In this document: in pieces, positions 18,314 through 41,577 of the stretch
Layout of the letters: every line of letters starts with the position of its first letter
How positions within the stretch are numbered: the stretch's first letter is position 1
Source of the DNA: SAR324 cluster bacterium SAR324-CTD7B
GTDB taxonomy: Bacteria; SAR324; NAC60-12
Reading direction: 5' to 3'
Assembly: GCA_002082305.1 (NCBI GenBank)
Contig: LSNO01000039.1
Location: forward strand, 1 to 56,741
DNA: 56,741 nt
Notes under the pieces: model-generated
What the model was told of the DNA's origin: nothing
The model's database searches: none
The model's input: the letters and a program-made list of their open reading frames with translations, nothing else
Program-made: the position numbers and the translations under genes

Positions 18314-18323
18314 GAAACTATCT

Positions 18324-18410
18324 TCGTTAGGGGTGGCGGTTTCCGATAAAGGAACCACCTGAGAAAGTCCCTTGGAACCTGATCCAGATCATGCTGGCGC
18401 AGGAAAACGA
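18324..18410 (+). promoter_or_regulatory. TPP riboswitch (THI element)
   Basis: Conserved pieces in order: AGGGGTG, CTGAGAAA, the CCCTTGGAACCTGATC block and the GGCGCAGGAAAA end, closed by TCGTT/AACGA pairing. It senses thiamine pyrophosphate and should repress the downstream thiamine-uptake genes. The 130 bases to thiB can hold the expression platform, including an inverted pair of TCCGGA sites near 18491-18508. Confidence 0.93.
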
Positions 18411-18543
18411 CACTTCTGTTTGGCGGTTTCTGCAACCGTCTTTCCAATACCCCCTCTTTGTCATCCCTGCGAAAATTTTATTAAGTGAGTTTCCGGAGTG
18501 TCCGGAGCCTTTCCTTTCAAAAATTATTGTTCCGGAGATTGTT

Positions 18544-26596: not shown

Positions 26597-27757
26597 ATGA
26601 AAGTACCATTGCTCGATCTGCGTCCTCCTTTGGAGGAGTTACGTGATGAAATTATTGAAGCTGTTACTCAAGTCATTGATTCAACCCGCTACATTATGGG
26701 ACCTGAAATTGACAGCCTGGAAAAAAAAATTGCTGAATATTGCGGTACTGCGGACGCAGTAGGAGTATCGTCCGGAACTGATGCCCTTTTGCTTTCACTG
26801 ATGGTTTTAGACGTTGGGCCTGGAGATCTTGTGTTGACTAGTAATTTTTCTTTCTTTGCTACTGCCGGCGTTGTCGCCCGTCTGAATGCGACTCCGGTAT
26901 TTGTAGACATTGATCCGGAAACATATAACATTGATCCGGAATGTGTGAGAATGACTTTGGCAGAAATGGATAAGGAAACCCGGAAACGAGTAAAGGCCAT
27001 TATTCCGGTTCATCTCTACGGCCAATGTGCAGACATGAAAGCAATATTAAATATTGCTGCTGAATTTGAAATTCCTGTTATTGAAGATGGTGCACAGGCA
27101 ATTGGTGCAGAGTGCGAGATTGATGGGAAAAAGAGGCCTGCAGGCAGTTTGGGTGATTTTGGCTGTTTTTCCTTCTTTCCTTCAAAAAATTTAGGTGGTG
27201 TTGGAGATGGTGGGATTGTCACAGTCAATGAACCTGAACTAGCAGAAAAGTTGCGTCTCAAACGAGTTCATGGAGGCGAGCGAAAATATTACCATCGTGT
27301 GATTGGAGGAAACTTTCGCCTTGACCCCATTCAGGCAACCGTAATACGTGTTAAACTACCACACCTGAACCACTGGCACAACCAGCGTCAGGATAATGCT
27401 GAGTACTACAACAAGTTGTTTGCTGAAACAAGTTTAGGTGGGAGTATAAGTATACCTCAGGTCATGCATTCCAAAAGGCTGCAAAATCCTCACATCTACA
27501 ATCAGTATGTAATCAGAGCTGAACAGCGTGATCAATTGCAATCATTTTTGGCAGAAAACGAAATTTCAGCAGAGGTATATTACCCACTTCCTTTTCACCT
27601 GCAAGAATGTTTTCTGGATTTAGGCGGTAAAGCAGGAGACTTCCCGGTTTCTGAGACGGCAGCAGAGGAGGTACTTGCTTTGCCTGTTTATCCCGGATTA
27701 AGTCGGCAAATGCAGGAATCGGTTGTGGAGAAAATTGAAGAATTCTATCAGGCTTAA
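26597..27757 (+). CDS. DegT/DnrJ/EryC1-type PLP aminotransferase
   Basis: 386 residues from the ATG at 26597; a TTG eight codons earlier is less likely. The PLP lysine lies in [29 protein letters not shown] binds the PLP phosphate and [10 protein letters not shown] is the usual C-terminal family motif. Such enzymes make amino-sugars for surface glycans or LPS. It is not next to the glycosyltransferases of the window. Its 3' end overlaps fusA by four bases, tail to tail. Confidence 0.9.
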
Positions 27758-29862
27758 CCTTCTTTTTCCTTGAGTTTTTCCTGCCGCTCCTTGATTACTT
27801 TTTCCTGCACAAAGGAAGGACATTCTGCATACTTCTCAAATTCCATTGTGTAATTTGCTTTTCCTGCAGACATGGAGCGAAGAGTTGTTGCATAACCAAA
27901 CATTTCCGCTAAAGGCACACCAGAATTAATCACGGTGTCGTCACCTTTTACATCTGAGCCATAAATCACACCTCGCCTGGAACTCAAGTCTCCTATCACT
28001 GAACCTTGATACTCACTTGGAGTTTCCACTTCAACTTTCATGACTGGTTCCAGCAGTACCGGATTTGCCTTTGCAACAGCCTGGCGCATGGCGTAACGTG
28101 CTGCTAATTGGTAAGCTAAATCACTTGAATCAACATCGTGGTATCTTCCCTCATTTAGTGTAACCTTAATATTAACCATTGGGAATGCGGCCAGGGGACC
28201 TTTTTCCATCACATCCTTGAAACCTTTTTCACATGCACCAATGTGTTCTGACGGGATTGAACCACCAAAAATTTTGTTCTCAAATTCAAAACCTTCTTCA
28301 TGATCCAAAGGCAACGGTTCAATTGATCCTGTGACTCCTGCAAATTGTCCGGAACCACCAGTTTGTTTTTTATGCAAATAATCGTAATCCGCTGCTGTCG
28401 TGATTGCTTCTCTATAGTTCACTTGCGGAGCACCAACAATAACATCCACTTCAAATTCCCGACGCATTCTTTCAATGTAAATATCAAGGTGCAGTTCACC
28501 CATTCCCGAGATAATCGTATCTCCGGATTCTTCATCAGAGGAAACGTGAAAAGTAGGATCTTCTCGCATGAAACGCCCAAGCGCTTTACTCAATTTCATG
28601 TGCTGTTCATTATCTTTACCTTTTACTGCAAGAGAAATAACGGCATCCGGAACAAAAATAGATTCACAGGAAACACGGATTCCCTCACCACAAAAAGTAT
28701 CTCCAGAAGCACAATCAACTCCAACCATTGCAATTATATCTCCGGCTTCTGCAACATCAATGTTTTCACGGTCATTGGAGTGCATTCTTACCATACGGCC
28801 AACACGCATCTTGTTGACGGTTCTGGAATTAGTAACCTGGTCACCTTTTGATAGTTTGCCCTGGTAAACCCTGGTATATGTCAACTGTCCAAATTGTTCT
28901 TCTGTTAGCTTAAAAGCCATTGCTACAGTCGGTTTATCCGGGTCGCAACTCAAAAGAACTTCTTCTTGTGTCTTAATGTCAGTTGCTTTAGTTGAAGCAG
29001 CTTCGAGTGGCGATGGGAGGTAGCTGATCACAGCATCAAGAAGTGATTGAACACCTTTATTTTTGAAAGCACTTCCCATATAAACCGGGCATAGCTCCAA
29101 AGACTGTACACCTTTTTTTACTGCAGCATGGATGCTTTCTTCTGCAATTTCTTTTTCTTCCAGTAAATCCTCCATCATTTGATCATCAAACATGGAAACG
29201 GCTTCCAGCATTTCTGCCCGGTAACTTTCGGCATCTGATTTCATCTCATCCGGAATTTCCTCAAACCTCAGATCATCACCATGCTCACCGTCAAAATAAA
29301 TAGCTTTCATTGTGATCAGGTCAACCACTCCTTTGTGATTTTCCTCAAGTCCGATTGGCAGTTGCATGGCTACTGCGTTCAAATCAAGAATGTCTCGAAT
29401 ACCCTTAATACCATTATGGGGATTTGCACCCATTCGATCCAATTTATTAATAAATGCAAGTCGCGGAACCCGATAACGTTTCATCTGACGATCTACTGTG
29501 ATCGACTGAGATTGAATACCGGCCACACCACAAAGGATCATAATCGCTCCATCAAGAACACGTAGTGATCGCTCAACTTCAACTGTAAAATCAACATGTC
29601 CGGGAGTATCAATAATGTTAATTTTTGTATCATTCCATTCCACAGTTGTTGCAGCAGAAGTAATCGTGATACCTTTTTCTTTTTCCAGTTCCATGTAGTC
29701 CATGGTTGCTCCGGCACCTCCTCCACGAACCTCTTCAATTTTGTGAATTTTGCCGGCGTAGAATAAAACACGCTCTGTGAGAGTTGTTTTTCCGCTGTCG
29801 ATATGAGCGGAAATACCGATGTTTCTTGTATTTTCAAGAACTTTTTGAGATGCAGGATTCAT
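27754..29862 (-). CDS. fusA: elongation factor G
   Basis: 702 residues. GTPase motifs [14 protein letters not shown] and NKLDRMG, followed by domains II-V as in EF-G. It starts [25 protein letters not shown]; Ser replaces the usual Ala in the P-loop (IDSGKT). The gene stands alone rather than with rpsLG or tuf, and it may be one of two EF-G copies in the genome. No good Shine-Dalgarno precedes the ATG. Confidence 0.95.
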
Positions 29863-30004: not shown

Positions 30005-31063
30005 TTATGTAAAAATGAGTTTTGCTTCACTAAAATTGCTGACGTAACCGATACAAGCAGAGGGAAACACTCCGACATTATGCAGGTCTTTTAGAATTGG
30101 GGTAGTTTCGTCTTCCGGAACTGCGACCAAAAGGCCGCCGCTGGTTTGTGGATCCAGCATTAATTCTTGCAGTATCGGTGCACTTCCTTCAGGAAATTTC
30201 CAGTATTTTTCAACCAAACTGCGATTGGTTTCATTTACACCGGTACTTACACCACGCTCGTACATTTCCCTGGCTTCACTCAAAATAGGGATATCATCAA
30301 GTGTGATGTTCAATGTTAAGTCAGAACCGGGCACCATTTCCATGCAATGACCAGCAAAACCGAATCCAGTGATATCAGTTGCTGCGTGTATCTCGTAGTT
30401 CGCCAATACTTCAGCCGCAGCTTTGTTTAGTTCAATTAAGGAGTCCAGACAATCCTGAAGCGCTTCTTTTGAAACTAAATTTTTTAGATTAGCATTGAAT
30501 AAAACGCCACTGCCAATTGCCTTCGTCAAAATCAACTGATCTCCAGGCTGAGCACCGATATTTCTCCAAATTTTTTCAGGATGCACCAACCCTGTTACAG
30601 TCAGTCCAAATTTTGGTTCATCGTCATCAGTGGTATGTCCTCCTAATAGAACTGCACCTGCTTCTGTGATTTTTTGCAGAGCACCTGCAACAATCCTTTC
30701 CAGCACCTCATCTTCAAGTTTTCCGGAAGGAAAGCCTACAAGATTTAGACAGGACAAAGGTTTGCCGCCCATAGCATAAACATCACTTAGAGAGTTGGCT
30801 GCGGCAATTTGTCCAAATAAATAAGGATCATCAACCGGTGGTGTGATAAAATCAGCTGTGAAAACAAGAGCCTGTTCATCATTCAAAAGATACACTCCTG
30901 CATCATCACTGGTGTCAAAACCAACGAGCACATTAGGGTCATTATTTTGAGGTAAAGAAGCCAGCATTTTTTTCAATCCGACCGGATTGAATTTTGATGC
31001 TCAACCACAGGTTTTTGCCAAACTTGTGAGACTGGGCTTTTGAAAAATTTGTTTCAATTTCAT
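30005..31063 (-). CDS. selD: selenide, water dikinase with selenocysteine (UGA) at the active site
   Basis: Makes selenophosphate from selenide and ATP. Read straight, the open frame begins only at a TTG at 30976. Extending upstream in frame gives ATG at 31063, then MKLKQIFQKPSLTSLAKTCG, a TGA at 31003-31001, then ASKFNPVG and the known core (VGFDTSDDAGVY, GGHTTDDDEPKFGLTVTG). The TGA falls exactly where E. coli SelD has C17, with the essential Lys three residues on (U21-A-S-K24; GCGCK in E. coli, GGUAAK in many selenoprotein SelDs). Total 352 residues, a normal length. A hairpin with GGUC loop follows the TGA. No selA, selB or selC is in the window. Confidence 0.92.
30972..30991 (-). promoter_or_regulatory. 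bacterial SECIS-like hairpin in selD
   Basis: In the selD mRNA, 10 bases after UGA, TTCAATCC pairs perfectly with GGATTGAA around a GGTC loop. The loop lies at +18 to +21, within the window used by SelB in bacteria, and contains the loop guanines needed for SelB binding. Confidence 0.82.
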
Positions 31064-31198: not shown

Positions 31199-31615
31199 TT
31201 ATACATCAAAACAGGCTCTGATGGAATCCGGAATGACCTGAGCCTGTAGGCGTTTTGGGTTTGAAGGATGTGGTTTGGCCCACACCCTTACTTCTGTACC
31301 CTTTACGCAAAGTTGTCCGTTGTTATGAATTTCGTGGGATGCAATCATTGTTTTTGCCCGCCACTCACTGATCCAACTGGTAACTTCAATCACATCGCCA
31401 TATTTAGAAGGACAAATAAATTCAGCATGAGCATCTACGATCGGTAGGCCGACAACGCCATATTGTTTCATTAAATCCCCCATATTCGCACCGGCTTTGT
31501 CAAACAAAAGATGGGCACTCTGATCAAACCAAATGAAATAATTTGGATAAAACACAATTTTTGCGGGATCACAATGTCCCCAGCTAATTTGAATTGTGAG
31601 TGTATATTTTAGCAT
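31199..31615 (-). CDS. 4-hydroxybenzoyl-CoA-type hot-dog thioesterase
   Basis: 138 residues. Hot-dog fold thioesterase with the motif GHCDPAKIVFYPNYFIWFD (catalytic Asp in CDPA) near the N-terminus. It likely hydrolyses an acyl- or aryl-CoA. It is 135 bases upstream of selD, same strand, and unrelated in role as far as can be seen. Confidence 0.87.
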   Translation of the reverse strand: MLKYTLTIQISWGHCDPAKIVFYPNYFIWFDQSAHLLFDKAGANMGDLMKQYGVVGLPIVDAHAEFICPSKYGDVIEVTSWISEWRAKTMIASHEIHNNGQLCVKGTEVRVWAKPHPSNPKRLQAQVIPDSIRACFDV

Positions 31616-41245: not shown

Positions 41246-41456
41246 TTGCTTCTTAATCTAAATTTGCAGGTGTCCGGAAGGACAACTGTGTGTTCAACTA
41301 ACAGTTCTACACAAATGAAAAAGTCAGGCAAAGTCTCTTCACTAGCAGAAAACAAGAACCAACAAAGTCATTCTTGCAATAGGTTAATCAGATAGACGTG
41401 AATCAATCAGGTGGGTCACCAAAAGAGCAGGACCGGCACTTTACTCGAATCGAGTC

Positions 41457-41565
41457 GTATCGACTCCCTTCCGAAACTTTCCGGAGGGCTGGCATTAGCA
41501 CCTTGATGCTGAAACAGGATGCTCGACACTTCAAAGGGCCAGATCCCTCAGTGTCATCTGGATAC
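41457..41565 (-). promoter_or_regulatory. SAM-I-type (S-box) riboswitch
   Basis: On the minus strand, 5' of metA: P1 GTATC/GATAC, P2 GACACT/AGTGTC enclosing the S-box core GAGGGATCTGGCCCTTTGA, P3 AGCATC/GGTGCT followed by AAT, and a P4 hairpin (CCCT...AGGG). The core differs by one base from the usual GAGGGA-CTGGCCC spacing and the P3 part is not canonical, so a variant of the SAM-I/IV clan is possible. Downstream ACTCGA-T-TCGAGT hairpin may be part of the switch. Confidence 0.82.
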
Positions 41566-41577
41566 AAAATTACGTAT

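Follow-up and report, generated by a model that had tools for sequence, protein, structure and literature searches.

The window (the whole stretch of 56,741 nucleotides that was analysed) carries on its minus strand a gene, selD (30005..31063), for a selenide water dikinase (selenophosphate synthetase). The gene starts with an ATG at 31063, ends with a TAA at 30005-30007, and comprises 352 residues when an in-frame TGA at codon 21 (31001..31003, minus strand) is read as selenocysteine (Sec); the frame runs MKLKQIFQKPSLTSLAKTCG-TGA-ASKFNPVGLKK... A preliminary description of this DNA had given the same limits, which are correct, with no mention of the strand. The product scores 364.9 bits against the curated NCBIfam equivalog model TIGR00476 (cut-off 125), and phmmer aligns it over nearly its full length with the SelD proteins of solved structure from Escherichia coli (3u0o, 4.4e-61) and Aquifex (2yye, 3.7e-59). 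In this alignment the TGA lies opposite the catalytic Cys17 of E. coli SelD and the lysine three residues further on (Lys24) lies opposite Lys20, where the preliminary description had also placed them, and the N-terminal loop accordingly holds both the catalytic Cys/Sec position and the lysine that are expected of a SelD.

A gene caller that uses translation table 11 would be expected to start the gene at a TTG (30974..30976, minus strand), giving an open reading frame of 323 amino acids (30005..30976). This TTG, beginning at 30976, is codon 30 of selD and sits within the 3′ arm of the hairpin described below, and its use removes residues 1-29, the loss that had been foreseen. The further statement that the whole active site would be lost holds for the Sec/Lys loop but is overstated, since downstream of the TTG the gene still encodes the remaining conserved core, which aligns with the solved SelD structures. 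Automatic annotation would thus truncate selD, and the Sec reading corrects the gene model. No clear Shine-Dalgarno sequence was seen before the ATG. Extra stops noted in the selD of two congeners (L107 and L108) lie upstream of the start codon.

The next gene downstream, on the same strand, is elongation factor G-like (27754..29862, minus strand), with full-length matches to elongation factor-type proteins of ~700 amino acids. The next gene upstream (31199..31615, minus strand) would encode a YbgC/FadM-like acyl-CoA thioesterase, with a match to TIGR00051 of 46.4 bits that is below the cut-off of 68.7. Elsewhere in the window are two riboswitches, one for TPP (18319-18422, plus strand) ahead of a gene for a thiamine ABC transporter binding protein and one for SAM (41454-41568, minus strand) upstream of a gene for a MetA-like homoserine acyltransferase.

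The hairpin downstream of the TGA

A perfect 8-bp hairpin, TTCAATCC-GGTC-GGATTGAA, begins at the 10th base past the TGA, as the preliminary description had it, and occupies 30972..30991 on the minus strand, with arms at 30991-30984 and 30979-30972 and a GGUC loop at 30983-30980. The distance from the UGA to the loop is 17 nt, and the 45 nt that follow the TGA have a folding energy of -12.4 kcal/mol. The general bSECIS model calls for a loop of 3-9 nt with a G in its first two positions, a stem of 4-16 bp, a loop placed 16-37 nt past the UGA, and an energy of -7.5 kcal/mol or lower (PMC13188914), and in each of these respects the hairpin in the window conforms to the model. No other in-frame place in selD gave a stem above 6 bp. 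When the protein was held fixed and its codons were redrawn at random according to the codon usage of the window, 5.7% of the synonymous codings produced an 8-bp stem; the encoded amino acids already favour such a stem, which is therefore not very improbable by itself, and a lone hairpin is modest evidence for a SECIS element.

Strong evidence for the hairpin comes from comparison with related genes. Synonymous conservation was compared along 18 SelD genes of the phylum in 341 seven-codon windows, of which the one spanning codons +4 to +10 past the TGA ranks first, at 0.82 where the mean is 0.48; the CCG GTC within it is invariant in all 18. Covariation was examined in 33 distinct sequences comprising the TGA and the following 45 nt. 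In this set 88.6% of the cells of the stem are paired, with 30 two-sided changes, a level reached by none of 500 shuffles, and pairing drops to 53% or less when the stem is slid by a single column.

In eight members of the phylum (L124-L127 and L133-L136) the stem lies 4 nt further downstream, as in TCCGACA-GGTC-TGTCGGA; positions of these shifted elements include L124:1555-1602, L126:1064-1111, and L134:1956-2003. The eight sequences are paired in 98.2% of cells in the new register versus 53.1% in that of the window, and the group to which the window belongs is only 29% paired in the second register. Seven of the eight shifted loops start with GG and six are GGUC, with GGAC in L124, and for L136, where the loop is either GGAU or GAUU, the register is less clear. 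The shift puts the loop in a different reading frame (..G GTC.. in the window and GGT C.. in the shifted genes), and a constraint on amino acids is therefore hard to invoke for its retention; the comparison suggests that selection preserves the loop and stem themselves and not the residues that they encode. The shifted sequences occupy two separate places in the SelD tree, with several of the forks there open, and L124-L126 are nested among order-mates that have the first register. The shift amounts to a natural experiment on SECIS recognition, in which a loop that starts with GG (and is mostly GGUC) and a stem of 7-8 bp are kept while the distance from the UGA goes from 17 to 21 nt. A search of the literature found nothing relevant on a shift or covariation of the SECIS in selD, and any novelty of the 4-nt shift is to be taken in that sense.

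Codon 21 among relatives and the selenium genes of the genome

The phylum was represented by 52 genomes, including that of the window, and in 44 of them SelD could be read across the site, in 45 copies. All 44 have TGA at codon 21, flanked on either side by conserved protein, and as these genomes are separate assemblies the TGA is not explained by a sequencing error for TGC or TGT, one of the two ways in which the preliminary description had envisaged that its reading might fail. Among 80 named relatives the site holds TGA in 70 and TGT or TGC in 10, and nothing else, so that the in-frame UGA falls where homologs have Sec or Cys. Replacement of Sec by Cys in SelD has been described elsewhere (PMC1794560), and the predicted Sec codon is kept in every readable copy across this uncultured phylum. 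At 59-65% identity, the closest named relatives are those of Planctomycetota (Anammoxibacter), Calditrichota, and Desulfobacterales and of a 'Gemmatimonadetes' MAG. Their sequences are interspersed with the phylum's own SelDs in a part of the tree that has moderate support, which suggests horizontal transfer. One genome of the set (G066) has two different Sec-type selD genes (L137 and L138) on separate branches of the same tree.

The genome of the window (148 contigs, 87.7% complete) contains the components required for Sec insertion. A tRNA-Sec with anticodon TCA scores 52.9 bits (cut-off 47), SelA is matched at 510 bits, and SelB at 400 bits, with winged-helix domains 2 and 3 of SelB; tRNA-Sec, SelA, SelB, and SelD thus occur together, and the absence of the first three, by which the Sec reading could have been overturned, is not observed. 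A match to MnmH/SelU (309 bits) indicates that selenium is probably also used for tRNA selenouridine. SelD does not appear to be the sole selenoprotein, since a SelW-like Rdx protein (L148, MNIKIYYCVV-U-NYKPS..., at G000:C36:12758-12967, minus strand) has an in-frame TGA at CVVU that is followed by an 8-bp hairpin, and the copy in one congener (G010, L256) has the same UGA and hairpin. A formate dehydrogenase-like protein (L143) reads RLCHASS, with a Cys codon rather than UGA at what we take to be the Sec position of FdhF, and no UGA was seen in four AhpC/TSA matches. With its selenoproteome sampled by families in this way, the genome would use selenium for at least two selenoproteins.

The locus of the tRNA-Sec looks unstable in the genus (L153, L155, L156, L178, and L202). 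The tRNA is missing or broken in nine congener drafts (G001, G005, G006, G008, G010-G013, and G015), eight of which have SelD with the UGA, and 8 of the 13 congeners in which SelD was read across the site have no intact tRNA-Sec in their drafts. Neither Rfam search nor BLAST found the tRNA in the drafts of G001, G006, G008, G010, G011, G012, and G013, all with SelD-UGA, and all that was found in G015 is a degenerate 5′ half, whose anticodon is TTA, adjoining lapA. Decayed extra 5′ pieces of tRNA-Sec also lie beside lapA in G003 and G016, with an intact copy further on. In the genome of the window, a gene just beyond the tRNA-Sec encodes a protein whose match to DUF6538 is weak and below threshold; this protein is perhaps integrase-like, and the locus has perhaps been rearranged by integrating elements.

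An apparent loss of tRNA-Sec from genomes in which selD keeps both its UGA and its hairpin is striking at first, and if real it would fit poorly with the Sec reading. Full-length selA, selB, and SelW-UGA were found in G010, from which 1.79 of about 2.3 Mb was taken, and the Sec trait therefore appears to have been kept. Few tRNA genes at all (14) were found in that genome, and together with the decayed pieces in G003 and G016 this leads us to attribute the missing tRNA-Sec to a gap in the draft assemblies where the locus has been rearranged. It is unlikely that no such gap exists and that the congeners either decode their Sec codons by means of a tRNA so divergent that current models miss it or are at present losing the trait.

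Interpretation and comparison with known selenophosphate synthetases

The codon, the hairpin, and its conservation and covariation, together with the machinery in the genome, support the view, already put forward in the preliminary description, that SelD is a selenoprotein with a UGA at its catalytic site and a SECIS of its own. We put the probability that selD encodes a Sec-containing selenophosphate synthetase, with UGA read as Sec at codon 21, at about 97%. This would be ordinary, well-known selenoprotein biology, and as judged from sequence it is very well supported. Translation would begin at the ATG at 31063, and the UGA would be decoded as Sec by SelB-GTP with Sec-tRNA-Sec, the complex being recruited by the GGUC-loop hairpin. 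Sec21 and Lys24 would handle selenide in the N-terminal loop, and SelD would be expected to form selenophosphate from selenide and ATP. The selenophosphate would serve SelA, for the Sec of SelD itself and of the SelW-like protein, and MnmH, for tRNA selenouridine. SelD would thus require its own product for its full synthesis, which should therefore follow selenium supply.

Other readings of the TGA have to be weighed against this one. If translation did end at the TGA, or if the TGA were an assembly error for TGC or TGT, the protein would be made from the downstream TTG, or selD would be a pseudogene. The open reading frame of 323 amino acids and the want of a clear ribosome site ahead of the ATG are compatible with this, but neither a stop nor an error would be expected to leave TGA at this codon in 44 separate genomes, with protein conserved on both sides. 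Moreover, a start at the TTG would drop the catalytic Sec/Cys and the Lys kept by all relatives, and the TTG itself sits in the conserved hairpin, which together make this reading very improbable. Less probable still is a change of the genetic code in the lineage, by which UGA would be a sense codon (Trp, for example) with no involvement of Sec. Beyond the in-frame UGA itself nothing speaks for such a change, and the full Sec machinery in the genome and the occurrence of Cys or Sec at the aligned site in every relative speak against it. Furthermore, TGA ends 22 of the 39 genes checked in the window, where it is the commonest stop; UGA is therefore a normal stop elsewhere in the window, and reassignment was rejected.

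The UGA might also be read through by a near-cognate tRNA, aided by a stem-loop but without Sec. Such stem-loop-aided read-through has been proposed for hymenopteran SPS1, an insect SPS1-UGA (PMC4561486), and the lack of tRNA-Sec in some congener drafts would fit. The genome of the window nevertheless has tRNA-Sec, SelA, and SelB, it has a second selenoprotein gene with UGA at CxxU, and Cys is the sole alternative at the site in the 80 relatives, so read-through of this kind is given very little weight, about as little as a true stop or an error.

Sec-containing SelD is well documented in bacteria. SelD is one of the two most widespread bacterial selenoproteins (PMC1794560), and in a reference set of 223 genomes 19% of SelD genes have Sec, always at the same position (PMC4561486). 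The SelD of the window is like other Sec-SelDs (TIGR00476) in having UGA at the equivalent of Cys17, a Lys three residues on, a hairpin within the gene, and the machinery in the genome. It differs in its motif, which is of the type CGU-A/S-A/S-K with a Cys two residues ahead of the Sec, whereas the Bacillota relatives that were read mostly have GGU-G-C-K or motifs like GGU-A-A-K. The Cys of this motif, at codon 19 (31009-31007, minus strand), occurs as Cys-Gly-Sec in most of the SelD group and is not invariant, since L110 has Tyr and L119 has Gly in its place. The Cys-type SelDs of E. coli (3u0o) and Aquifex aeolicus (2yye, annotated as a Cys-like chain) are full-length homologs with the same core, and their solved chains have Cys where the SelD of the window would have Sec. 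E. coli SelD has a further cysteine, Cys19, at a place where the SelD of the window has Ser, and the Cys at codon 19 could act as partner for the Sec in its stead. The hairpin shows no difference from the general bSECIS model (PMC13188914); it is with some of its own phylum-mates, whose hairpin is displaced by 4 nt with the GG-start loop kept, that the SECIS of the window differs in position.
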